A stretch of DNA of 64,000 nt from Sedimenticola thiotaurini (GTDB taxonomy: Bacteria; Pseudomonadota; Gammaproteobacteria; Chromatiales; Chromatiaceae), in the NCBI RefSeq assembly GCF_001007875.1, contig NZ_CP011412.1:186001-250000 (forward strand), read 5' to 3'. This document shows, piece by piece, positions 6,237 through 19,421 of the stretch (position 1 is its first letter; every line of letters starts with the position of its first letter). The position numbers were made by a program, and so were the translations under genes. Below the pieces are notes generated by a model, which saw nothing but the letters and a program-made list of their open reading frames with translations, was not told the DNA's origin and made no database searches.

Positions 6237-8063
<1,827 letters not shown>

Positions 8064-8104
8064 CCGGGCATTCTAAAGGTTGCAGGGGAGGGCCACAATT
8101 GGAA

Positions 8105-8138
8105 CCCGGACACCCCCCGCATGGAGGGGGTGTCCGGG
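8105..8138 (-). terminator. Long perfect GC-rich hairpin at the end of the envelope module
   Basis: Arms CCCGGACACCCCC (8105-8117) and GGGGGTGTCCGGG (8126-8138) pair perfectly over 13 bp around an 8-nt loop. It lies between the stop of the 419-aa secreted gene and the recQ start, so it probably ends the module transcript. There is no clear U-tract on the minus strand after the stem. Confidence 0.5.
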
Positions 8139-8179
8139 GCATCCTGACCGAAGGTGATCACGCCGGGGCCTGGAACAGC

Positions 8180-8210: not shown

Positions 8211-9470
8211 TTAACGGATCACCCTTTTCGGTTGCTCTTCACTCGTCGGGGATTTGAGCTGCAACTGGGGTATTGGCTGGGGCCCAGGGGGCGTGGTGGT
8301 GATTTTCCGGACCGGCTTGCTGGGCGAAGTGGCCTGAGCCCTGGGTGTCAATTGACCGGGTATCACCGGGGTGCTGCCGGGGGCCTTGAAACCCGGGTTA
8401 ACTGTAGGCACCGCGGGTTTCGGCTTGCAGGTGTAGTACCAGCTCAGGCCGGTGAAGTGACCTTTTTTACTCCAGGTGAATTTTTTTGCGTTCTCATCTT
8501 TCTCCTCAATCAAAAGGCTGAAATCGCGCTTAAACTCTTTGTTTATCTTCTCCCAGGTTTTGTTCTCATCCAGGGCTGCTGTATAGCTGAAATGGTGCTG
8601 TTTGTAACCCTCGTCACTGTTGTAGCTGATAGGGAACGACTGGTAGACGGAATTGCCACCCATGACGATGCTGTAACGGATGTAACCTTTGCCATGGCCT
8701 TTGAAGCTGACAGTGAATTGCTTATCGCTGGGGCAATAGCCTGCGTCGTGAATTTTGTTGGTGGTGATTTGTGCCTGAGTGATCATGAGCGGCTGATATC
8801 CACCTCCGATACTGTTCGCACCGGAGATCGGCGTGCTCTTGGCTTTGATAGAACCGACCCCACCGGAAGCCTTACAGATGATATCCACCGCGACGTTGGT
8901 GGTTGCTTTCTCAAAATACCGCTTGGACGCATTCGACTTGGGGCCACAGGAAGCTACTGCGGACAAAGCGATGTTTCTGGACAGGTGCTGATCAGAGTTC
9001 ATCACCTGTAGTTTGCTGACGCCCTGATTCTGCTTGGTTTGCAGCATATCCTTACACAGCTGGACCGGATTGAACGGCAGTTCACTCAAGGGAACCTGCA
9101 TCTCTGCGCTGGTATAGCCGATCGATTTTTGTCCCCTGGCGAACAAGTGGACGGTGTAATAGGGGTGGTACTCAGCAATACCGCCGCCTATATTTGGGTT
9201 TCCGAAGACCATGTCGGTCGACTTGAGGATGTTGTAGTTTTTACAGCCGGCTTTCATCTCCATGTGGTAGTTAACACTATTGCCACTGGTAACCTTGTTG
9301 TATTCCCCGTTAGTCGCCTCAACTACTATTTTTCCGTCGTTGATGTGGATGCCATCAGCCTTGCGGATATCAACATATTCGACACGGTCCAGCAGTGCCC
9401 AACCGGGCAGGCTCAGGCCACCGGTCGTGATGGCGAGTAAGCTGGTGGCTATAATACGATTGGTGTTCAT
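8211..9470 (-). CDS. Secreted Cys-containing protein with Pro-rich tail, unknown function
   Basis: I do not recognise a family. The product (419 aa from the chosen start) has a signal peptide (RIIATSLLAITTGGLSLPGWA). The mature part carries six Cys, rich in Asn, Lys, Ser and aromatic residues, with a possible internal duplication: a segment ending in VDIICKASG and a later one ending in LSWYYTCKPKP. The last about 70 residues are a Pro/Thr/Lys/Gln-rich low-complexity tail. Start: an ATG four codons upstream (9482) forms part of the GGAG ribosome site for the ATG at 9470, so 9470 is chosen. A copy of the cluster promoter lies immediately upstream. It is the last gene of the sigma/anti-sigma/subtilase module and is likely an exported effector or structural part. 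Confidence 0.8.
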   Translation of the reverse strand: MNTNRIIATSLLAITTGGLSLPGWALLDRVEYVDIRKADGIHINDGKIVVEATNGEYNKVTSGNSVNYHMEMKAGCKNYNILKSTDMVFGNPNIGGGIAEYHPYYTVHLFARGQKSIGYTSAEMQVPLSELPFNPVQLCKDMLQTKQNQGVSKLQVMNSDQHLSRNIALSAVASCGPKSNASKRYFEKATTNVAVDIICKASGGVGSIKAKSTPISGANSIGGGYQPLMITQAQITTNKIHDAGYCPSDKQFTVSFKGHGKGYIRYSIVMGGNSVYQSFPISYNSDEGYKQHHFSYTAALDENKTWEKINKEFKRDFSLLIEEKDENAKKFTWSKKGHFTGLSWYYTCKPKPAVPTVNPGFKAPGSTPVIPGQLTPRAQATSPSKPVRKITTTPPGPQPIPQLQLKSPTSEEQPKRVIR

Positions 9471-9506
9471 GGTGCTCTCCATTTGAATTTGTTATCCAGA
9501 CACCTT

Positions 9507-9534
9507 TGAGTCGAAGCTCGCAGCAAAACGGTTC
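9507..9534 (-). promoter_or_regulatory. Predicted ECF sigma promoter before the 419-aa secreted gene
   Basis: Reading the minus strand: TGAACCGTTTTGC (GAAC at 9534-9531), 17 nt, then CGACTCA (9513-9507). The same GAACC-17-CGAC..A arrangement occurs before the anti-sigma gene and before the small secreted gene of this cluster. The -35 part overlaps the end of the subtilase gene, and the 5' leader would be roughly 30 nt. Confidence 0.65.
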
Positions 9535-9535
9535 A

Positions 9536-10957
9536 CTATTTTTTCCACTGAATGATTCCGTAACCAAATACCGGGTCCCGACCAGGGATGCCCAGATCTG
9601 TTGTGAGGGCGGGCAGGGTCTCCGGGTGAGCCGCCAGAACCGCCGTAACCCAGGGCGCGGCATAGGAGCTGCCGCTGGCGTAAAAGCCCTTGCCTCCCAG
9701 GTCAGCGGCCCAGACATCCACTCCTGGGGCTACCACGTCAAGTAATGGGCTGTCGGGTGAGGTCCTGGCTTTGCTGTGTTGGATATCGACGGCGGCCACG
9801 GCAATCACATCGGGATGGTTGGCCGGGAAGAGCAGGGGCGAATCCCGGCCTCCATTACCGGCGGCGGCAACCAGCACTATGTTGGCCTGGTGAAACCGAG
9901 TCAGTGCCTGGGCAATTATCCAGCTGTCACCGCCCCCAAAACTCATATTCAGCGCGTCGGGCCTTTCCATACGGGCAAAAATAGTTTCCAGCCCCTGCAA
10001 CCACCAATCAGTGCGGGTACGCAGTTCACCCTGGGTTCCGGGTTTGAAGATATTGACGGCCAATAGGCGCGCCTCCGGCAGGGCGCCGCTGACAAAATTC
10101 CGGCCCACCAGCAGGCTCGCCACGGCGGTGCCATGGCGGCTGGCTGTTGTGTCCTGACCGGTTATATCCAGACTCTCGATCCGGCTGTTGCGTAATGCCG
10201 GGTGCTGAGTATCCACCTTGCCATCCAGCATGGCGATGTAGGGATCTGAACCGATCGACCCCGGGTCCGGCAGGCCGGTCAGCGGCCGCGCATATTCCCG
10301 GCCTCGACTGCTCTGCAGAAAATAATAGCGATTGAACTCGGCCTGGAGTTGCGGGTGGTGTTGCTGCAGCCGCTTCAGTAATGCATCGCTATCGGTGGTT
10401 GTGGGTACCCGATAAACACTCAGCACCATGGACAGGCTTTTCAACACCAGACGGCGTTTAATCCGCAGGCCGTACTCTCTCAGCAGTTGTTGCTGGGTTT
10501 GGGCTTCAGCCAATGTGTTGGCTATGATCAGGATCTCCGACTTGATCAGTACCCCTGCCCGTTCCCGCTGACTGCTGATAGCCGGCATGGAGGGGAGCTG
10601 GCCAAGCAGCTGGAGTTCCCGCTGGCCGGTCGGTGGGGGAGCGTCGGGTTCACCTCGATCCTGGAGTGTTCCTGTGGTATCCGGTTGTCTGCCTGCGGTG
10701 GCGCTACCTGCGGATATTGAACCGGCGTTGGTAGCGGCAGCCCTGTCAGGCGCGGTATCCGCGACAGGTGCGCCGGTAGGCTGGAGGTGCTGATCCGGTG
10801 CGCTGGTTGTGGCCCGTATGACGACCGGTGTTGTAGTGGGGTTTGCAGCTGTGCTGGCAGATCCCGGAACGCCTGCCGGGTCCGTGCTCTGGGCCAAACC
10901 AGCTGCTGACCAGAGCAGTGAAATTCCCAATGTCAGGTGCAGCAGAGGCCTACTCAT
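9536..10957 (-). CDS. Secreted S8 (subtilisin-like) serine protease with long N-terminal region
   Basis: A subtilase with signal peptide (LTLGISLLWSAAGLAQ), an Ala/Thr/Pro-rich low-complexity stretch (about 26-115), an alpha/beta prodomain-like region (about 141-216, starting SEILIIANT) and a catalytic domain. Numbering is from the TTG-initiated frame two codons upstream (10963). The triad is complete: D247 in AMLDGKV, H277 in SRHGTAVAS, S433 in SGSSYAAPW, with oxyanion N370 in AAAGNGG. The gene overlaps the anti-sigma stop by 8 bp (14 bp if the TTG is used), so translation is coupled. Periplasmic or extracellular action is expected. Its context suggests a role in releasing the anti-sigma factor or maturing the co-encoded secreted proteins; that role is inference. 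Confidence 0.92.
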   Translation of the reverse strand: MSRPLLHLTLGISLLWSAAGLAQSTDPAGVPGSASTAANPTTTPVVIRATTSAPDQHLQPTGAPVADTAPDRAAATNAGSISAGSATAGRQPDTTGTLQDRGEPDAPPPTGQRELQLLGQLPSMPAISSQRERAGVLIKSEILIIANTLAEAQTQQQLLREYGLRIKRRLVLKSLSMVLSVYRVPTTTDSDALLKRLQQHHPQLQAEFNRYYFLQSSRGREYARPLTGLPDPGSIGSDPYIAMLDGKVDTQHPALRNSRIESLDITGQDTTASRHGTAVASLLVGRNFVSGALPEARLLAVNIFKPGTQGELRTRTDWWLQGLETIFARMERPDALNMSFGGGDSWIIAQALTRFHQANIVLVAAAGNGGRDSPLLFPANHPDVIAVAAVDIQHSKARTSPDSPLLDVVAPGVDVWAADLGGKGFYASGSSYAAPWVTAVLAAHPETLPALTTDLGIPGRDPVFGYGIIQWKK

Positions 10958-11558
10958 GGCCAATGATCTGGGCGTGCTCGATAAAGCTGGCGCCAGTCAG
11001 CTGGTTGAGAATAGCCTGGCTGTCAGCCTCTTTGGGAACCGCCAGGGTGACAACCCCCAGTGCAGAGGGTCCATCCACAACCTGGGCCTGCAGGGTGAAC
11101 AACAGGGCTTCAATATCGCCCCAGAGCGCATCCTGTTTGATCACTACGCGAAACAGTTGCCCATCCAGCTGTTGTACCTGCGGGTCACCACCCAGTACCT
11201 GGGTCGGTGTCTGATCGATCGGTTTGAAATAGATGCCCACCTGCAGACAGATAACCAGCACCGCGGCTGCAGCGAGGAAACGATTCCAGAAGTTACCGGT
11301 GCCGGCCTTGCGGTTATCGACTGGCGGTTTGTGCAGACTTTTTTGCAGTCGTTTCCAACCCAGCTCGCCAGGTTCAACCGATTTCCACTGGGCCTTTACA
11401 TGATCCTGAAGGGACTCCAGCATGGCTTTTTCGGCACGTGCCTCGGCGGAACGTTCAAGCAGCTCGTCGACGGCCTGGCGTTCTTCGCCGCACAGGGTAC
11501 CGTTGACGTACCAGGGCAGCAGTTCGATCAGTTTGTCGTCTTTGGCCTTGTCGTTCAT
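10950..11558 (-). CDS. Membrane anti-sigma factor with prodomain-like periplasmic domain
   Basis: An approximately 202-aa single-pass membrane protein. Its N-terminal LIELLPWYVNGTL matches the anti-sigma domain family, but the HxxxCxxC zinc motif is absent (ERSAEARAE stands in that place). One transmembrane segment lies at about 97-114 (LAAAAVLVICLQVGIYF). The periplasmic part (about 137-203) has a beta-alpha-beta-beta-alpha-beta pattern around AQVVDGPSALGVVTLAVP, similar in layout to the I9-like prodomain of the adjacent subtilase. It follows the ECF sigma gene by about 50 bp and overlaps the protease gene. A GTG three codons upstream (11567) is an alternative start. It probably holds the ECF sigma factor inactive at the inner membrane. 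Confidence 0.85.
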   Translation of the reverse strand: MNDKAKDDKLIELLPWYVNGTLCGEERQAVDELLERSAEARAEKAMLESLQDHVKAQWKSVEPGELGWKRLQKSLHKPPVDNRKAGTGNFWNRFLAAAAVLVICLQVGIYFKPIDQTPTQVLGGDPQVQQLDGQLFRVVIKQDALWGDIEALLFTLQAQVVDGPSALGVVTLAVPKEADSQAILNQLTGASFIEHAQIIGHE

Positions 11559-11588
11559 GTCACTCACTCGCTTGGGTCTGTTGGTCTA

Positions 11589-11616
11589 TCTGTCGTTGGC
11601 GGTGCGAAAAGGGTTC
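11589..11616 (-). promoter_or_regulatory. Predicted ECF sigma promoter before the anti-sigma gene
   Basis: On the minus strand: TTGAACCCTTTTCGC (GAAC at 11616-11613), 17 nt, CGACAGA (11595-11589). The -35 block overlaps the sigma stop codon. The -10 block is identical to the one before the small secreted gene (15928-15934). It would give the anti-sigma/protease pair its own sigma-dependent transcript and so negative feedback. Confidence 0.65.
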
Positions 11617-12172
11617 AATCCAGTTTCGACAGGAAGCGACTCAAACAGGCCAGCAGTAGTTTTTTCGCATGTAACATGCGGGTTTTGACTGTGCCCTCAG
11701 GAATACTCAGGGTTTGGGCTATTTCCGGATAGCTGCAACCTTCAAAAAAGGTGAGATAGACAACCTGACGATGACCCTGCCCCAGCTCCTCCAGGCAGAA
11801 CTTGACGTGTCCCCGGTTCTCCCGGGCGATCTCGCCGATTTCCAGGGAGCAGCCCATTCGGTCCGGTGAATTTTCATCAATATGGGTTTCGTCTTCGTGG
11901 TCATGGCGCACGTTACGGCGCACCATGTCCACTGCCTTGTGGTGGGTGATGGAGAACAGCCAGGTTTTGACGGAAGATTTACCGGTGTACCCGGTGGCTT
12001 TGTGCCATACCTCCGTCATCACCTCGTTCATTACCTCGCTGGCATCCACCGGGTTTTTCACTGTGCGCAGGGCAAAGTTGTAAACCATGCCGGAGTATTT
12101 GCGATAGAACCGTTCCAGTGCCGATTCCTGGCCCGCGATTATCCCCTGTAGCAGGGCCTTGTCGTCATCCAT
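11615..12172 (-). CDS. ECF-type RNA polymerase sigma factor
   Basis: A 185-aa sigma-70 family protein with only regions 2 and 4. Region 2 spans about 18-90 (ALERFYRKYSGMVYNFALR, then VMTEVWHKA and SVKTWLFSITHHKAVD for -10 recognition). Region 4 spans about 125-178 (QVVYLTFFEGCSYPEIAQ, then IPEGTVKTRMLHAKK helix-turn-helix). The acidic linker between them (HDHEDETHIDEN) is typical. It is followed by the anti-sigma gene. It lies 36 bp after the Fn3-like secreted gene and has no cluster-type promoter of its own, so it is probably read from the barrel-gene promoter. The specific ECF group cannot be fixed without a search. Confidence 0.93.
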   Translation of the reverse strand: MDDDKALLQGIIAGQESALERFYRKYSGMVYNFALRTVKNPVDASEVMNEVMTEVWHKATGYTGKSSVKTWLFSITHHKAVDMVRRNVRHDHEDETHIDENSPDRMGCSLEIGEIARENRGHVKFCLEELGQGHRQVVYLTFFEGCSYPEIAQTLSIPEGTVKTRMLHAKKLLLACLSRFLSKLD

Positions 12173-12208
12173 GGCGAGGCGTCAGCTCCCAACTGTTTAT
12201 CCTGTAGC

Positions 12209-13354
12209 TCATTGCTGGACAAAGGCAAAGGTCTTGAGGGGGGATTTACCGATGATCTGACCCTGCTGATCCAGGGCGTTCACCCGCCACAGGTATTGCT
12301 GATGGCTTTGCAGCTTGCCGAGCACCAGGGGAGACAGGGTAGTCTCAGTGCTGCCTTTGGGAATCAGCATGCCGGTGACAAAGGCTGGGGAGGCATCCCC
12401 GGACGGCTGGAATACCTGTAACTGGTAAACCACGGCACCATCGACCTGGCTCCAGTCCAGGAGCGTGTCGCCGTTGATGGGTTGGCTGCTGGGGGTCAGG
12501 GTCATCATGGTCAGGGCGATATCGGACTTCATCAGGACCTGGTACAGCACTTCCACCCGCTTGCCACTGGTTTCACAATCCTGATTGGTATCATCGCTAT
12601 TGGCACGATCCAGCAGGCAGAAACGCAACAGGTACTTGCCGGGTTTATTGGTGGGCAGCCTGGGGCTGATCAGGCGGCTGTGTTGCAGCTGGTTCAGGGT
12701 TTTGCGCTCCAGCTTCAGGGTGCGGTAGATGGGATTGGCTTCCGTACTGCCGGGCTCAGCCAGTTGCCAGTAACCTTCCAGCACGCCGCTTCCGCTGTAA
12801 TTTACATCCAGGTAGCTGAACAACTCTTCACCGGACTCCACGACGGTCATGCTGGAGAGATTGGGGAAGCTCAGCTGCATCATCTGCACGGCAAACTGGC
12901 TCTGGTCACGGGTGGTGCGTAGACCACTATCGTTCAGGCGAAAACGGACATCGGCATTAATCCCGGGGGTAGGGGCACCACTAGTGTCCGCAAAGGAGCG
13001 GCGGATAACAATGGTTTTGTAGCCGGCGTTGATCCAGCTTTGCACCTGGCTGGCGCTGATATTGAAACTCTCCGGGTAAACCTGCCCGGGTGGTGTGATG
13101 GCACCCGCAATTACCAGTGGTGTTGCCAGGTTCTCCACCCGCGCCTGGGATGAGAATCTGTCGGAAGTGGAGCTGACGTGCCACTGAATGGTGAAGTGAT
13201 TGTTTCTGTTTGCCTGCAATACCAGGGTGGAGGATGAACCTGAGGCAGCAGTGACATCGGCCCGGGCCGTGGACAACAGGCCCAGACAACTGCCGATCAG
13301 CAGCAGGGCGACCAGCAGGCGGGAGGTAGTTTGTGTTAACAGTTGTTTTTTCAT
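12209..13354 (-). CDS. Secreted protein with C-terminal Fn3-like domain, unknown function
   Basis: A 381-aa product with a clear signal peptide (LLVALLLIGSCLGLLSTARA). The body is beta-rich without catalytic motifs. A central segment (NKPGKYLLRFCLLD...NQDCETSG) holds the only mature Cys pair. The last about 90 residues (NGDTLLDWSQVDGAVVYQL to QQYLWRVNALDQQG) look like a fibronectin type III fold, as used for protein or glycan contacts at the cell surface. The chosen ATG has an AAGAG ribosome site and lies 10 bp after the stop of the barrel gene; a TTG start upstream (13396) would overlap that gene. It is co-transcribed with the barrel upstream and the sigma gene downstream. Confidence 0.8.
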   Translation of the reverse strand: MKKQLLTQTTSRLLVALLLIGSCLGLLSTARADVTAASGSSSTLVLQANRNNHFTIQWHVSSTSDRFSSQARVENLATPLVIAGAITPPGQVYPESFNISASQVQSWINAGYKTIVIRRSFADTSGAPTPGINADVRFRLNDSGLRTTRDQSQFAVQMMQLSFPNLSSMTVVESGEELFSYLDVNYSGSGVLEGYWQLAEPGSTEANPIYRTLKLERKTLNQLQHSRLISPRLPTNKPGKYLLRFCLLDRANSDDTNQDCETSGKRVEVLYQVLMKSDIALTMMTLTPSSQPINGDTLLDWSQVDGAVVYQLQVFQPSGDASPAFVTGMLIPKGSTETTLSPLVLGKLQSHQQYLWRVNALDQQGQIIGKSPLKTFAFVQQ

Positions 13355-13364
13355 GGCAGCTCTT

Positions 13365-15386
13365 TTAACCCTCGTTATTGCCAGACCAGTAGACACTGAA
13401 GCCCATCAGGATCTGCCAATTTTCATAGTCGCTTGTGTTGATGGAGTCCTCCTGTCTGCCGTAACTGCCTTTCAGGAACAGATCCAGGCCGGGTTTACGA
13501 GATTGCGCTTCAATAGCTTTCCAGCTTAATTGCAAGTTACCGGTATGGGTGTCCTGTCGGCTGTCCAGATAAACAGGGTTTCCATACTGGTTGTCGAAGC
13601 GACCGTAAAAATAGTTCAGATTCATTGTCAACTTACGGGGAATCAAGCCGATCTGGGTATCAAAGCCGGCATTGAGCGTCTCCTGTTCATTGCCGTTACG
13701 CTTTTCGCGATAACGATTCCACTGTAGTTGTGGCGTGATGCTGAAGCGGCTGTTTGGATACCACCCCAACTGAAACGTGGTCATGTGATTCGTGGTATCA
13801 CCCAGTGGGGTATATATCTCGACGGCATTTTGCATTACCGCTTCACTGCGGTCTTCCACATCCACCCGGGCATAGCTGAGTCCCCAGTTCCAGGTGTCGT
13901 GGCTGAGGGTAAAGCCGATGGAGTACTCCTGCTGGGTGTTATCGATATCCATGCCGCTGAGCAGTTGGTCGCCATCCCGTTGGGTATTTTTAGTGAAGTG
14001 GTAATAGGCGTTCAGGCTTGGTGCACCGAGGGTTGACCAGACACCTTGCCCGGTGTCGACGGTGGGCGTGTAGTACAAGTCCAGTCCACGATAATCCATT
14101 TTGCGGGTGGCACGATCACTGCGGTCAGATTCGTTGGTCTCCTGCTGCTGCAAGTCCGCATTAAAACTCAGGGAGCCGGCACCGCCGGAGAAGGTGGCCT
14201 GGTGCGAGATCAGGTCGCCGGGCAGCGCCAGATTGGCGATGCTGTAAAAGTACTCACCTACCCGCTGGCGCTGCAGGTTGAGCTGCCAGTAATCCAGTCC
14301 CAGGGTGGGCATGGCCTCGCCGGAATTGAGCTGCACCAGAAACTTGCTGGCGTTATCGTTCAGGGTGTCATCGCCATACTCAAGGCCGTCACTGTCAAAA
14401 TCTGAAGCGGCGCTCTCCCAGTGCAGCCAGAGGGCACGGTTCATCCATATGGAATCGAGCGATAGGCCCCAGCTGTGACCGCCATAGACGGTATCAGAAT
14501 CAATCACCGTAAAGCCGCTGCCGGCCGAGGTCCCCTTACCGTCCACGTAACTGGCACCGATAATCAAGCGCTCCGGGTGATTGCTGATGGGGCTGAAAGA
14601 AAGGGTGCCGCCGACGGTCTGGTTCTGTTGTTCATCGGTCCAGAACAGATCCTCCCCGGCACTGTTGGTGGTCTCGCTCACCGCGCCAAAAAGGGATGCT
14701 TTAAATCGATCATCGTGGCGCTTGCTGAACAGGTTGATGCTGCGGCGCTGATAGCCGGAGAAGAGCAGGCTCTCCTGTTCCACACTGTTGTTGCCCACCT
14801 GTATTCCGGTGGAATACTGGTCACCATCATGAGACAGGGTGGCCTGGTAATCAGCCAGTTGCCATTGGTTTTCGGGGACGTGCCCCTGCTGCATTGAGTC
14901 ATAAATGGCCTGGATACGCGCGTCCACCCGGGCATTGCCATTCTGATAAGTCAGCGCACCATCAATAGCGGCATTACTCTGCCAGTGATCGCTATTGCTG
15001 TAGTCGGCCTGATCATCTTCATCAACGCGGTACTGGGTGGATAAGGTGGAGTTGATTGACCACTGGGTATGGCTCTTGGGCGCTATGCTGAGCATGGTTT
15101 CGGTCAGGGTTTCGACCTCGCCGTCCTCATAATAGGCCACTACATAGGCTTCGTAGTTGCCCGGTTCCAGATCACTCTCCACAGTCACCGTTACACCCGT
15201 ATCACTGAAATGTGCGAACTGAGTGACATCGTAACCGCCGATTTCGACACTGAAATAACTAACGGGTTTTCCCTTCGGCGGATGTTGGAACTGGAGAGCT
15301 ATATCGTCCGCTGCTTGTGTCTGCAGACAGCAAAGTATCAGACTGAGGGAGACCAATAGCCTCCCATGGCTTGCCAGCGTAGTCAT
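13365..15386 (-). CDS. Probable outer-membrane beta-barrel protein with N-terminal Ig-like domain
   Basis: A 673-aa exported protein (signal LLVSLSLILCCLQTQA). After a short Ig-like segment (about 30-105, ending VETLTETMLSIAP), the rest is a long run of amphipathic strands with alternating hydrophobic/polar residues, many aromatic girdle residues and Asp/Asn/Gly-rich turns, for example YSIGFTLSHDTWNWGLSYAR and GNLQLSWKAIEAQ. It ends in GFSVYWSGNNEG, where the last aromatic is not the terminal residue as in classic porins. No TonB box or plug is apparent, so a TonB receptor is unlikely. Length suits about 20 or more strands. It heads the operon with the Fn3-like protein and the sigma factor. 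Transport or surface-display function is unknown. Confidence 0.75.
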   Translation of the reverse strand: MTTLASHGRLLVSLSLILCCLQTQAADDIALQFQHPPKGKPVSYFSVEIGGYDVTQFAHFSDTGVTVTVESDLEPGNYEAYVVAYYEDGEVETLTETMLSIAPKSHTQWSINSTLSTQYRVDEDDQADYSNSDHWQSNAAIDGALTYQNGNARVDARIQAIYDSMQQGHVPENQWQLADYQATLSHDGDQYSTGIQVGNNSVEQESLLFSGYQRRSINLFSKRHDDRFKASLFGAVSETTNSAGEDLFWTDEQQNQTVGGTLSFSPISNHPERLIIGASYVDGKGTSAGSGFTVIDSDTVYGGHSWGLSLDSIWMNRALWLHWESAASDFDSDGLEYGDDTLNDNASKFLVQLNSGEAMPTLGLDYWQLNLQRQRVGEYFYSIANLALPGDLISHQATFSGGAGSLSFNADLQQQETNESDRSDRATRKMDYRGLDLYYTPTVDTGQGVWSTLGAPSLNAYYHFTKNTQRDGDQLLSGMDIDNTQQEYSIGFTLSHDTWNWGLSYARVDVEDRSEAVMQNAVEIYTPLGDTTNHMTTFQLGWYPNSRFSITPQLQWNRYREKRNGNEQETLNAGFDTQIGLIPRKLTMNLNYFYGRFDNQYGNPVYLDSRQDTHTGNLQLSWKAIEAQSRKPGLDLFLKGSYGRQEDSINTSDYENWQILMGFSVYWSGNNEG

Positions 15387-15404
15387 ACCGATATCCTTAT
15401 GGGT

Positions 15405-15424
15405 TTATTATTGTGCAATAATAA
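15405..15424. promoter_or_regulatory. Near-perfect 20-bp palindrome upstream of the barrel gene
   Basis: TTATTATTG-TG-CAATAATAA, 9-bp arms with a 2-nt centre, 18-38 bp before the ATG of the barrel gene. It falls where the -10 of the barrel promoter would be, given the GAAC block at 15439-15442, so it may be an operator that overlaps the promoter. Confidence 0.45.
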
Positions 15425-15438
15425 TGCCAGTCGAAAAA

Positions 15439-15445
15439 GTTCAAT
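15439..15445 (-). promoter_or_regulatory. Half-site of the ECF promoter motif before the barrel gene
   Basis: The minus strand reads ATTGAACTTTTTCGA, almost the same extended -35 block as at 15952 and 11613 but without the CC. At the expected 17-nt distance the bases are TTATTGC, not CGAC, so only the -35 half is convincing. The AT-rich palindrome covers the -10 position. Confidence 0.35.
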
Positions 15446-15458
15446 ACAAGCGCAAAGC

Positions 15459-15478
15459 CGCCGGGCCGAAGCCCAGCG
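15459..15478 (-). terminator. UUCG-tetraloop hairpin after the small secreted gene
   Basis: In RNA of the minus strand CGCUGGGC-UUCG-GCCCGGCG forms an 8-bp stem (one G-U pair) capped by a UUCG tetraloop, some 30 nt past the stop of the small secreted gene. A U-tract is lacking; it may be a partial terminator before the barrel gene. Confidence 0.45.
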
Positions 15479-15509
15479 TCTGGTGTTGTAAAGTTCGAGT
15501 TGTTAACGG

Positions 15510-15893
15510 CTACTTGACCGGTACATAGTTGAAGCAGGTGTAGGACAGATACATCTTGGAGTCATTGTTCTGACCATCAGAAGGCAGGTCGATAAACCTA
15601 TTCTTCACCTTGATGACATCTGTGTCCGCATTACAGGTGCGTTTGATAACTTTTTGTTGTGCACAATCATACTGGTACCACTTTTTACCCTCATGCTCCA
15701 TCAGCTTGATGTTGATTGGCGTAAAACCGGCTCCGCACTGCGCCGGTTTGACAATCTGCGTCGCTGACAGAACCAATTTGGGTACAACGGGTTTTGCCTG
15801 GTTCTGCGGGGCCGCCAGGGCAGTCCCGATCAAACCTGCGCTGAACGCCACCAGGCAGAGAGCGATAGCGGATAAAAAAGCGTGTTTCTTCAT
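15510..15893 (-). CDS. Small secreted protein with four Cys, unknown function
   Basis: A 127-aa protein with signal peptide (AFLSAIALCLVAFSAGLIGTALA). The approximately 100-aa mature part has four Cys spaced as two likely disulfides (PAQCGAG, YDCAQQ, KRTCNAD, SYTCFNY). Its ending MYLSYTCFNY resembles the LSWYYTC ending of a segment in the 419-aa protein at the other end of the module, which may reflect a shared fold. ATG 15893 has an AGGGA site; the TTG-initiated extension (15926) would destroy the signal peptide geometry. It sits under a strong copy of the cluster promoter. Confidence 0.75.
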   Translation of the reverse strand: MKKHAFLSAIALCLVAFSAGLIGTALAAPQNQAKPVVPKLVLSATQIVKPAQCGAGFTPINIKLMEHEGKKWYQYDCAQQKVIKRTCNADTDVIKVKNRFIDLPSDGQNNDSKMYLSYTCFNYVPVK

Positions 15894-15927
15894 GATGATT
15901 TCCCTGTTTGGTTGCTGGATGTACAAC

Positions 15928-15955
15928 TCTGTCGCAGGAAATCGAAAAAGGGTTC
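15928..15955 (-). promoter_or_regulatory. Predicted ECF sigma promoter before the small secreted gene
   Basis: On the minus strand: TTTGAACCCTTTTTCG (GAAC at 15955-15952), 17 nt, CGACAGA (15934-15928). It shares the -35 block, spacing and complete -10 block with the site at 11589-11616. It lies 35 nt before the ATG at 15893. Confidence 0.7.
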
Positions 15956-16022
15956 AAAGGGAAGTCACCCCGTCTGGTCAGGGAGGGATTGTGGGGTGGA
16001 GTGGCGCTGGAACAGCTCGCCG

Positions 16023-19000
16023 TTATCGCTTCTCTCCGCCCTGCCAATCGATCTTCGGATCCACTGAGCGCAGGTGCAGATCCCGTTGTGGGAAGGGGAT
16101 CTCGATACCGCCCTCCGCCAGCGCCTTGTTCAGGGCCATGTGCAGATCGTGCAACAGGGGCATGCGCTTGAAGTTGTCGCTGACAAAGACGCGGATGTCG
16201 AAGTTCAGCGAACTGTCGCCAAAGCCGGTGAAGAAGATGGTGGAGCGGGGTTCCTTCATCACTTCAGGGTGATTTTCCACCACCTCGGTCATGATCTTCA
16301 GCGCCTTGTCGGTATCCGAGCCGTAGGCAATGCCCACCGTGATGACGATACGGGTCACCGGATCGGTCAGGGTCCAGTTGATCAGGGGATCGGTGATGAA
16401 GTTCTTGTTCGGCACCACCAGCTCCTTGTTGTCCCAGTCGGTGATGGTGGTGGCGCGGATACGGATCCGGGAGACGGTGCCGCTGATGTCGCCAATGGTG
16501 ACGGTGTCGCCGATGCGGATCGGGCGTTCAAACAGGATCAGTATGCCGGAGAAGAAATTGGCGAAAATCTCCTTCAGTCCGAACCCGAGGCCGACGCCCA
16601 TGGCTGCCACCAGCCACTGCACATCATCCCACCGCAGGCCGACCAGATTGAGTACCAGCAGACTGCCGGCACCGTAGATGGTATAGCGGCTGATGGTGGA
16701 GACCGCATAGCGGGTGCCCAGGTCCAGGCTCAGCGGTTGCAGTAGGGTGATCTCCAGCAATCCCGGCAGGTTGCGTCCGGCAACCATGGTGAGGGCCACC
16801 GCCGCCAGCGCCGCCAGACCCTCCCAGAGGGAGATGTCGGAGATCTCGCCGGCGCTTTCGAACCGCCACAGCACCACGGTGTTTAGCCAGCTGAGGGCGG
16901 GTGTCAGCTGTTCCCAGATCAGGTAGATCAGCACGGCAAACAGCAGGCCGGCACCGACCCGCAGCAGTCGCCGGGTCTGTTCGTTGATGGTGGCCAGGTT
17001 GATCGCCTCGAACTCCGCCAGTTCCGGTACCCCCTCACCGGCGGCCTCGGCGGCCTCCTTGGTGAGCTTGGCTTCCTGGGCCGCCTGTCGTCTGGCCCTG
17101 GCCCGTGCCAGCGCCAGACGGCGCTCCGCCACCAGTAACCAGCGCTCCAGCAGGTGGTAGGTCAGAAAGATGAATATTCCGCCGATCATGGAGAAATAGA
17201 GCATGCGCTCCAGGTTGAGGGCACTGAAGTAGTAGCCCTCAAAGGCCAGTATGGCCAGGCTCAGGTTGACCAGCACCACCGCTGGATACCAGAGCCTGCT
17301 CAGGGTGGTGCGATTGTCGTTGCCATCGGTTGCCAGAAAACCGCTCCAGGGGTTGAGCATGCGATGGAAAAACAGCGTCATGACCAGCAGCCCGGCGATA
17401 AAGGCCAAACGCCCCAGGGAGTTGATATAGGCGTCATTCTCGACCCACTCAAACACCCCGACAGTAAAGCCGATGGGAACCAGGGCAGCCACCAGCCAAT
17501 GCATGTGTTGACGGAAATGGGTGCCGTGTGCCGGGTTCCAGCGAAAGTGCACTTCGGCCAGGCCGTTCCTGATAAACAGGTAACGGACAATTTGGATGAT
17601 GAAGAAGAACACCGCCACGCGCCGCAGTCCGATGGATAGCGCTACGGTGAAAGAGTGATCGGAGCCCTTGGTGAGCCACCATCCCAGGGCGGCCATCAGC
17701 AGCGGCCAGGGCAGTGCCAGCAGCAGGGTGATGAGAAAGGCGCTGCCGGTATTGCCGAAGCTGTCCCGGGTCACATTGCCGACAGCAGGGGCAATTTCAG
17801 CCAGCCGCCGGCGCATCTTCTTTCGGTAGGCCAACAGCAGGCCCATTATCATCACCAGCAGTATAAACCGGTAGGGATAGCGTTCCAGGCCGTTGATGAT
17901 GCCATCGGCGGCGCTGTGCCAGTTCTGGGCGGAGAAGAACCAGCCGATTGCCGCGATTGTGTCCCGGAAAGTATCCGCGGATATTCGGCTGGTGGAAGGT
18001 ATCCAGAGCAGATGGCGGTCCAGCAGTTCACCATACTGGGCCACCCGGTCGTAGAGTTGCAACTGTTCGGCGTTGAGGTCGGCCTGCGTCTTCTCATAGC
18101 GCCCATAGGCCGTTATCAGTTTGTCCAGCAGCACCAGTCGATCATCCAGCAGCTGTTTCAGTTCGAGGCGGATACCGCTCCACTCCGCGGCAGACAGATC
18201 AGCCGGGCGGAGTTCATCAATCAGGTCATGTTCGAGTTCCGCCTGTAACTGTTTTCTTTGATCATCGATCTGAAAAGACTCCAGCCGCACGGTGGCGATC
18301 TCGGCGCGTCGCTTCTCGACGCTTTTCTCGATATCCGCCAGGCGGGGCAGGCTGGTGCGCTGCTTCTGCAGGACGCGGCCCGGCTGTTCATCCAGGCCAC
18401 CGATACTGATCTGTTGCTGAACCCGCTCCTGGCTCTGGCGGATCGCCTCTTTGCGGGCCACGGTCTTCTCCAGCTCCAGGGTGATCGCTTCGGTCCGGCT
18501 GGCCAGTTGGGCCAGCTTCTGGCTGAGAGCGCTGTTCTGGTTGGCGTACTGCTGGATCAGCGGATGCTTCCCCGCTGCCTCCTGCTGGGCAATTGCCGCC
18601 TGCTGCTGGGCCTGCTGCGCCTCTTCGGACTGCACCAGGGAGGTCTGCTCCTGGAACTGCTGCACCTGGGCGTCGGCCTGTTTCAACCGGGCCTGGGCCA
18701 GTTCAATCTGAACCGCCAGTTGGTCCATGCGGTGGGTATGGCTGAGCCGCTCCATCTGCAGGCGGTTTATCTTGTTTTTCAGCATCAGCTGGGTGGCTGA
18801 CGCGAGCTGTTTTTGCGACGCCTGGAGCCGGTTTGCCGATTCGCCACTCAGCTGCTGTTCGATCTCCTCCAGCCAGCGCTTGGCATCTGCCAGCTCCTTA
18901 CCGGACTGTTCCGGCCGGAGTCGCTGCCGGCTGCGCTGCTCCTCCAGCTCCTGCAGCTCGGTCTGGGCCAGTTGGCGTTCCGACTGGGCCAGGTTATAGC

Positions 19001-19421
19001 GTCGACTCAGCTCCTCAAATGTCAGATTGGCGGATGGGGTGGAGGGTTTGCTCTGGCCGGCGAACAGGCTGAGGGCATTGCGTAGCTCCTTGAGTTGCTG
19101 TTCAGCGTTGTCGACTGTCTGCTTGTACAGCTCTGCCTGCTTCTGCTCCCGCTCGGCCTGCTGCAGCAGGTCCAGAATCTGGCGGTAGACCTCCAGCTCC
19201 TTGCTGTCGCTCCCTTCCTGCCCGGCGATCGCTTCCAGCTCGGTAACCTTGGCCCGGGCGCTCTCGATGGTCAGGGCGGTGGACTCCAGTGGGTCGACCG
19301 GGTCCGCCGCCAGAATGGGCAGGATGACCGCCAGGTTCAACAGGAGTATCGGCAGCAGCCTGGACAGTGGCCGAAATTGGATCAGGAGGTTCAGCACGGA
19401 TCTCCCCGGAGGTGCGCTCAT
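16023..19421 (-). CDS. mscK: Large MscS-superfamily mechanosensitive channel (MscK/KefA type)
   Basis: A 1132-aa inner-membrane channel, close in size to E. coli MscK (about 1120 aa). Order: N-terminal signal-like segment (LLPILLLNLAVILPILA), a long periplasmic coiled-coil region (about 50-460, Gln/Leu/Glu-rich), about 11 transmembrane segments, then the MscS core. The core pore helix reads GVGLGFGLKEIFANFFSG, followed by the beta domain IRIGDTVTIGDISGTVSRI and a C-terminal cytoplasmic domain. It releases solutes on hypo-osmotic shock. It is monocistronic and precedes the envelope module on the same strand. Confidence 0.93.
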   Translation of the reverse strand: MSAPPGRSVLNLLIQFRPLSRLLPILLLNLAVILPILAADPVDPLESTALTIESARAKVTELEAIAGQEGSDSKELEVYRQILDLLQQAEREQKQAELYKQTVDNAEQQLKELRNALSLFAGQSKPSTPSANLTFEELSRRYNLAQSERQLAQTELQELEEQRSRQRLRPEQSGKELADAKRWLEEIEQQLSGESANRLQASQKQLASATQLMLKNKINRLQMERLSHTHRMDQLAVQIELAQARLKQADAQVQQFQEQTSLVQSEEAQQAQQQAAIAQQEAAGKHPLIQQYANQNSALSQKLAQLASRTEAITLELEKTVARKEAIRQSQERVQQQISIGGLDEQPGRVLQKQRTSLPRLADIEKSVEKRRAEIATVRLESFQIDDQRKQLQAELEHDLIDELRPADLSAAEWSGIRLELKQLLDDRLVLLDKLITAYGRYEKTQADLNAEQLQLYDRVAQYGELLDRHLLWIPSTSRISADTFRDTIAAIGWFFSAQNWHSAADGIINGLERYPYRFILLVMIMGLLLAYRKKMRRRLAEIAPAVGNVTRDSFGNTGSAFLITLLLALPWPLLMAALGWWLTKGSDHSFTVALSIGLRRVAVFFFIIQIVRYLFIRNGLAEVHFRWNPAHGTHFRQHMHWLVAALVPIGFTVGVFEWVENDAYINSLGRLAFIAGLLVMTLFFHRMLNPWSGFLATDGNDNRTTLSRLWYPAVVLVNLSLAILAFEGYYFSALNLERMLYFSMIGGIFIFLTYHLLERWLLVAERRLALARARARRQAAQEAKLTKEAAEAAGEGVPELAEFEAINLATINEQTRRLLRVGAGLLFAVLIYLIWEQLTPALSWLNTVVLWRFESAGEISDISLWEGLAALAAVALTMVAGRNLPGLLEITLLQPLSLDLGTRYAVSTISRYTIYGAGSLLVLNLVGLRWDDVQWLVAAMGVGLGFGLKEIFANFFSGILILFERPIRIGDTVTIGDISGTVSRIRIRATTITDWDNKELVVPNKNFITDPLINWTLTDPVTRIVITVGIAYGSDTDKALKIMTEVVENHPEVMKEPRSTIFFTGFGDSSLNFDIRVFVSDNFKRMPLLHDLHMALNKALAEGGIEIPFPQRDLHLRSVDPKIDWQGGEKR

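Follow-up and report, generated by a model that had tools for sequence, protein, structure and literature searches.

The window analyzed here is a stretch of 64,000 nucleotides (nt) from Sedimenticola thiotaurini (contig NZ_CP011412.1, positions 186,001 to 250,000). It possesses seven minus-strand genes between a mechanosensitive-channel-like gene and a RecQ-like helicase gene, which encode, in the order of transcription, a small secreted protein, an outer-membrane beta-barrel protein (OMP), an immunoglobulin-like (Ig-like) protein, an extracytoplasmic function (ECF) sigma factor, an anti-sigma factor, an S8 subtilase, and a secreted protein of 423 amino acids (aa) (Table 1). The fourth product contains regions 2 and 4 only, which match PF04542 (E = 1e-13, at 22–89) and PF08281 (E = 6e-13, at 126–173) above the cut-offs, and by this sequence evidence it is an ECF (group 4) sigma factor. 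A single ECF-type promoter word recurs in the cluster, and we interpret the cluster as an autoregulated ECF regulon for an envelope/secreted-protein module, with a probability of about 0.82 by our estimate.

The word TGAACCNTTTT-N11-CGAC occurs on the minus strand at 15931–15956, 11592–11617, and 9510–9535, and the three sites (P1, P2, and P3) are built alike: TGAACC, one base, TTTT, 11 bases, and CGAC, followed by AGA, AGA, and TCA. An earlier sequence-only reading had predicted these three promoters, and all of them were found on the minus strand upstream of the genes it named. The gap of about 20–40 nt that it gave between the motif and the start codons agrees with the distances from CGAC to the likely ATG, which are 37 nt (P1), 33 nt (P2), and 39 nt (P3). 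Its spacer of 17 nt holds when counted from GAAC but becomes 16 nt when counted from GAACC, and its 419-aa length for the last gene applies to the second ATG, the first giving 423 aa. At P2, the TGA that opens the -35 element (11615–11617) is itself the stop codon of the ECF gene, and no copy of the motif lies in the region directly upstream of the ECF gene.

Table 1. Genes and putative promoters of the ECF cluster, with flanking genes (positions in the window)
Feature	Positions	Strand	Remarks
P1, ECF-type promoter (TGAACC -35, N16, CGACAGA -10)	15928–15956	minus	upstream of the small secreted gene; 15928–15955: GAACCCTTTTTCGATTTCCTGCGACAGA
P2, ECF-type promoter	11589–11617	minus	upstream of anti-sigma/protease; 11589–11616: GAACCCTTTTCGCACCGCCAACGACAGA
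P3, ECF-type promoter	9507–9535	minus	upstream of the 423/419-aa secreted gene; 9507–9534: GAACCGTTTTGCTGCGAGCTTCGACTCA
P4, probable promoter	13593–13618	minus	TGAACTATTTTTACGGTCGCTTCGAC; one mismatch; within the OMP gene and ~240 nt upstream of the Ig-like gene
Small secreted protein, 127 aa from ATG	15510–15893	minus	without Pfam family at cut-off
Outer-membrane beta-barrel protein (OMP), 673 aa	13365–15386	minus	AlphaFold2, Foldseek, conservation across module loci
Secreted Ig-like protein, 381 aa from ATG	12209–13354	minus	open reading frame from GTG: 12209–13396
ECF sigma factor, 185 aa	11615–12172	minus	Sigma70_r2 and Sigma70_r4_2 above cut-off; alignment
Anti-sigma factor, single-pass, 202 aa from ATG	10950–11558	minus	
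S8 subtilase, secreted, prodomain-like N-terminal region	9536–10963	minus	PF00082, E = 2.8e-24
Secreted protein, 423 aa (second ATG: 419 aa)	8211–9482	minus	proline-rich tail
Mechanosensitive-channel-like gene, cluster flank	16023–19421		name from reading of the translation
RecQ-like helicase gene, other cluster flank	6237–8063		name from reading of the translation

A scan of the 3.96-Mb genome with TGAACCNTTTTN11CGAC gave three exact matches, all in the cluster, so that equally good matches spread at random, which the sequence-only reading had named as a point that would tell against it, were not seen for the T-tract form. Allowing one mismatch added a single match, P4, in the cluster and on the same strand, with two for the reversed-pattern control; the three-mismatch genome scan returned mostly background. 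Enrichment in the window was seen for the fixed-spacing, T-tract form, unlike the loose pattern GAACC-N16-28-CGAC (6 found vs 6.5 expected). Matches to the minimal motif elsewhere in the genome were inspected one by one; none lay upstream of a convincing secreted gene, and we rejected them as secreted-gene promoters on the basis of the genes downstream. The regulon thus appears self-contained in this genome, as the sequence-only reading had claimed. Because the word was read off the sites themselves, independent proof has to come from its conservation in other genomes.

The ECF sigma factor has relatives in Marinobacterium (74–75%), Pseudomonas (about 50%), and one Nitrospiria genome (42%), and a profile search with the anti-sigma factor added further relatives in gammaproteobacteria. 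Gene maps revealed a common module, OMP–Ig–ECF–anti-sigma–S8, flanked by variable secreted genes. TGAACC-N15/17-CGAC is present just 3' of the ECF stop codon (within 140 nt) in 19 of 22 module loci, while resampled sequence of the same composition yields it at no more than 1 in 300 per locus. Two loci from the same genus (L155 and L156), in which the ECF stop codon is TAA and the -35 element TAAACC, carry it with one mismatch and bring the total to 21/24. The TGA of the ECF stop codon coincides with that of the -35 element in nine loci (the window, L042, L043, L049, L084, L085, L087, L088, and L090). When spaced word pairs were searched de novo in the post-ECF regions, with no pattern supplied, GAACC-16-CGAC ranked top (17 of 24 regions; shuffled maximum, 4). 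Coding control regions also yield high dyad counts through conserved protein sequence (16 inside the ECF gene), and the non-coding comparison is therefore the relevant one. After the ECF genes of seven more distant ECF/anti-sigma loci, the motif was found in 0/7, which further supports the link between this sigma factor and the promoter word.

The flanking sites are conserved at homologous positions in distant genomes as well. P1-equivalent sites lie at 4274 in L042 and at 3970 in L043, and P3-equivalent sites precede homologous genes in L042 and L043 (inverted) and in L044. In Marinobacterium, the motif lies upstream of small secreted genes and, on the opposite strand, upstream of the gene homologous to that of the 423-aa protein. 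The Pseudomonas copies precede a 441-aa secreted protein and either the OMP operon or a CARDB-domain protein. Other copies precede FG-GAP-propeller-like repeat proteins (repeats named by eye) and further secreted proteins. The targets of flanking copies are thus nearly always secreted proteins, and the output proteins have proline-rich tails. The extended motif TGAACCN15-17CGACWSA gave 22 matches in eight other genomes, 14 of them in module loci, whereas the reversed pattern gave 0. Outside the module loci, one match is upstream of a homologue of the 441-aa protein on another contig, and three in the Nitrospiria genome, on other contigs, are upstream of likely secreted proteins. The regulon can therefore probably reach beyond the cluster in other species, and its self-contained character holds for this genome but probably not for the Nitrospiria one, with its probable targets on other contigs. 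The Nitrospiria copies in L126 and L139/L145 are not linked to the ECF cluster and lie upstream of genes that likely encode secreted proteins or lipoproteins; one of these targets has delta-60-like repeats (by eye). In L094 (9800–12349), a motif copy precedes a gene for an 824-aa secreted protein, whose C-terminal end, GGGGAFNLLTLFMLVLIVMGRQYIRR, looks like a C-terminal sorting signal.

Taken together, these comparisons support the proposal that the ECF sigma factor drives the promoters, with the anti-sigma factor and protease as feedback and the secreted proteins as output: the motif and the module travel together across distant genomes, with the motif at homologous positions. We infer from this pattern that the sigma factor reads the shared word. 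Certain observations speak against the proposal, namely that L094–L096 lack an exact post-ECF motif and that the minimal motif without the T tract occurs 26 times in the genome vs 14 for the control, an approximately twofold and thus nonspecific excess, which means that the T tract or the context must supply specificity. A chance likeness of three AT-rich upstream regions, which could be argued from the shortness of the motif and from the unenriched loose form, is scarcely credible in view of the conservation at homologous positions, the restriction of exact genome-wide matches to the cluster, and the de novo dyad. Several ECF groups share -35 elements of the GAAC type, and the motif might accordingly be read by another sigma factor, or serve as the operator of a regulator, while this ECF sigma factor has other targets. 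We consider this improbable, given that the motif tracks this particular ECF module through Gammaproteobacteria and Nitrospiria, is missing after the more distant ECF genes, and keeps a fixed -35/-10-like spacing, often overlapping the ECF stop codon.

The sequence-only reading recognized P1–P3 but missed P4, a probable fourth copy within the OMP gene, as well as the absence of a copy directly upstream of the ECF gene; it also overlooked the barrel and Ig-like genes as parts of the module, the overlap of the -35 element with the ECF stop codon, and the prodomain-like domain of the anti-sigma factor described below. Six loci (L084, L085, L086, L089, L090, and L092) and the two of the same genus carry a copy inside the OMP gene, about 215–290 nt from the gene end and upstream of Ig–ECF; in the two Marinobacterium loci, as in the window, the copy has one mismatch. 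The intragenic site might be merely a by-product of the conserved protein sequence LNR....DD. LNRExxSDDS is common to several loci and readily encodes TGAACCG and CGAC, which explains part of the signal, and the expected rate of the intragenic motif reaches 0.42 in single loci. We give this explanation roughly one chance in three, because the observed counts exceed the maxima of 300 synonymous codon shuffles within each gene, both for the exact tail motif (6/20; shuffled mean 1.1, maximum 4) and at one mismatch (12/20; mean 4.5, maximum 9), the loci in this test being related and hence not independent. Moreover, L155 and L156 retain the site although their protein sequence is different, with counts of 15 and 70 in 1000 shuffles. 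The sequence evidence thus favors P4 as a dual-coding promoter that serves autoregulation of the sigma factor and is kept beyond codon constraint.

The anti-sigma factor consists of an N-terminal anti-sigma domain, a transmembrane helix at about 92–111, and a periplasmic domain at 133–199. The N-terminal domain matches zf-HC2 in 8/9 members (best E, 7.9e-8), and its profile matches the structures of ChrR (1.8e-5) and RsiW (0.022); the Nitrospiria anti-sigma factor retains the HxxxCxxC zinc residues, and the window protein does not. AlphaFold2 predicts a beta-alpha-beta-beta-alpha-beta fold for residues 133–199 (predicted local distance difference test, pLDDT, mostly >90). With its N-terminal domain, single transmembrane helix, and folded periplasmic domain, the window protein is, by sequence and model, a class I anti-sigma factor. 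The adjacent S8 subtilase has a signal peptide (seen by eye) and a catalytic triad, D247, H277, and S433, that is invariant across eight homologues. A defense-related reading of this protein was dropped, its matches being only to generic subtilase models and, weakly, to IetS models.

The periplasmic domain of the anti-sigma factor resembles a subtilisin prodomain, weakly so by strict measures. Of 24 isolated periplasmic domains, 10 match PF22148, the family of the fervidolysin prodomain (best E, 2.6e-4), and Foldseek aligned the predicted domain with 3whi, 3cnq, 1spb, 1scj, and 9fid at a root-mean-square deviation of 2.3–3.6 Å (E about 0.03). The target TM-scores for free prodomain chains are 0.59–0.67, and among the matches listed, the solved structures scoring highest (0.64–0.67) are subtilisin/furin prodomains. 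Several results detract from this likeness. The window domain itself matches PF22148 with E = 0.0024 and 18.6 bits, under the Pfam cut-off of 21; at the Foldseek E of about 0.03, many other ferredoxin-like folds match the domain too; hhalign found the order of elements alike between this domain and the prodomain of the neighboring S8 protein, at E = 0.022 and a probability of 2%; and a sequence search of the PDB with the domain returned no prodomain. In addition, the outgroup ECF/anti-sigma loci L097, L098, and L100, which have neither an adjacent S8 gene nor the motif, encode prodomain-like anti-sigma factors (with the FAEP signature at the end).

In its predicted structure (AlphaFold2, pLDDT 82.7), the OMP has about 26 strands after an Ig-like domain at the N-terminus. 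Its Foldseek matches are large outer-membrane barrels only (FimD, MtrB, FecA, and LptD), with no close relative among them. Pfam searches of the OMP and its homologues yielded neither a TonB-dependent receptor nor a plug or STN/secretin domain, and we therefore rejected cell-surface signaling of the FecIRA type. The cluster resembles FecI–FecR–FecA in combining an ECF sigma factor, an anti-sigma factor, and an outer-membrane barrel, but differs in the N-terminal Ig-like domain of the barrel and in the additional protease and Ig-like protein.

Autoregulated ECF/anti-sigma operons have promoters with AAC-type -35 elements in their own clusters. Like RpoE–RseA, SigW–RsiW, and RpoE–ChrR, the present system has an ECF sigma factor with regions 2 and 4, an adjacent membrane anti-sigma factor, and such promoters. 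Unlike in those systems, one putative self-promoter lies 3' of the sigma gene and overlaps the stop codon, another probable one lies within the OMP gene further upstream, the periplasmic part of the anti-sigma factor is prodomain-like, and a secreted subtilase is predicted to be co-transcribed. Compared with fervidolysin/subtilisin prodomains (PF22148, I9-like), the periplasmic domain is similar in its predicted beta-alpha-beta-beta-alpha-beta fold and has a weak sequence match, but it sits on an inner-membrane anti-sigma factor instead of a protease, and the window protein falls under the Pfam cut-off. The part of the literature that we searched gave no description of the module or of a subtilase/prodomain anti-sigma factor, and searches of NCBIfam and PADLOC returned no family specific to the module. 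To that extent, the cluster looks like a known kind, the autoregulated ECF cluster, with a sensor arrangement that is an undescribed variant. ECF54-type sigma factors have subtilase/CHAT neighbors and are described without an anti-sigma factor (PMC8999054). The subtilase in the ECF neighborhood is a shared feature, but a subtilase that holds the sigma factor inactive in place of an anti-sigma factor does not fit here, since an anti-sigma factor is conserved, and we tentatively set the module apart from ECF54 on that ground.

The adjoining positions of a prodomain-like anti-sigma domain and a subtilase suggest protease–anti-sigma signaling. In the mechanism that we propose, the sigma factor would recognize TGAACC-N16-CGAC upstream of the small secreted gene, the anti-sigma and protease genes, and the 423-aa gene; a further site of recognition is probable within the OMP gene. 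The anti-sigma factor, judging from its domains, would keep the sigma factor at the inner membrane, and the subtilase co-transcribed with it may dock on or cut the prodomain-like periplasmic domain. An envelope or secretion signal would free or activate the subtilase, possibly by way of the barrel and the Ig-like protein; the released sigma factor would raise the output of the module along with that of the secreted proteins, until newly made anti-sigma factor shut it off again. The protease–prodomain switch and the barrel/Ig sensing are speculative and fall somewhat short of an even chance. Of similar weight to the switch is the possibility that the S8 protease acts on the secreted outputs, maturing or releasing them, while the anti-sigma factor is under other DegS/RseP-type proteases. 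The signal peptide and invariant triad of the subtilase, the secretion and proline-rich tails of the outputs, and the weakness of the prodomain match by strict E-values are all compatible with such a role, but the protease shares its putative promoter with the anti-sigma factor and not with the outputs, and the periplasmic domain has a prodomain-like predicted fold. The fullest form of the switch, in which a captured subtilisin prodomain serves as the anti-sigma sensor, the co-transcribed subtilase binds and cuts it, protease availability sets sigma release, and a promoter doubles as OMP coding sequence, is doubtful, with the odds about two to one against. If the prodomain-like anti-sigma factor is indeed a substrate or partner of the neighboring subtilase, this would be an unusual wiring from protease to transcription.

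The module is present in only two of the eight other same-genus genomes, with different outputs, and the 423-aa protein found no match in same-genus genomes. The outer genes of the cluster have a G+C content of 0.50–0.54 vs 0.60. This patchy presence and lower G+C content suggest that 8211–15893 is an accessory, possibly exchanged or mobile module. The analysis points to a widespread and apparently uncharacterized ECF module whose promoter word can be tested and used to read its regulon from genomes, and in which fast-changing secreted proteins are tied to a single conserved control cassette.

An Rfam scan of the window gave no match. Between the small secreted gene and the OMP gene, 15420–15470 contains a GC-rich hairpin together with a TTGAACTTTTTCGAC segment that weakly matches a sigma-70-like promoter; this may be a separate promoter for the OMP gene. 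A strong inverted repeat at 8098–8145, GGACACCCCC...GGGGGTGTCC, lies between the genes for the 423-aa and the RecQ-like proteins and is probably a transcription terminator.

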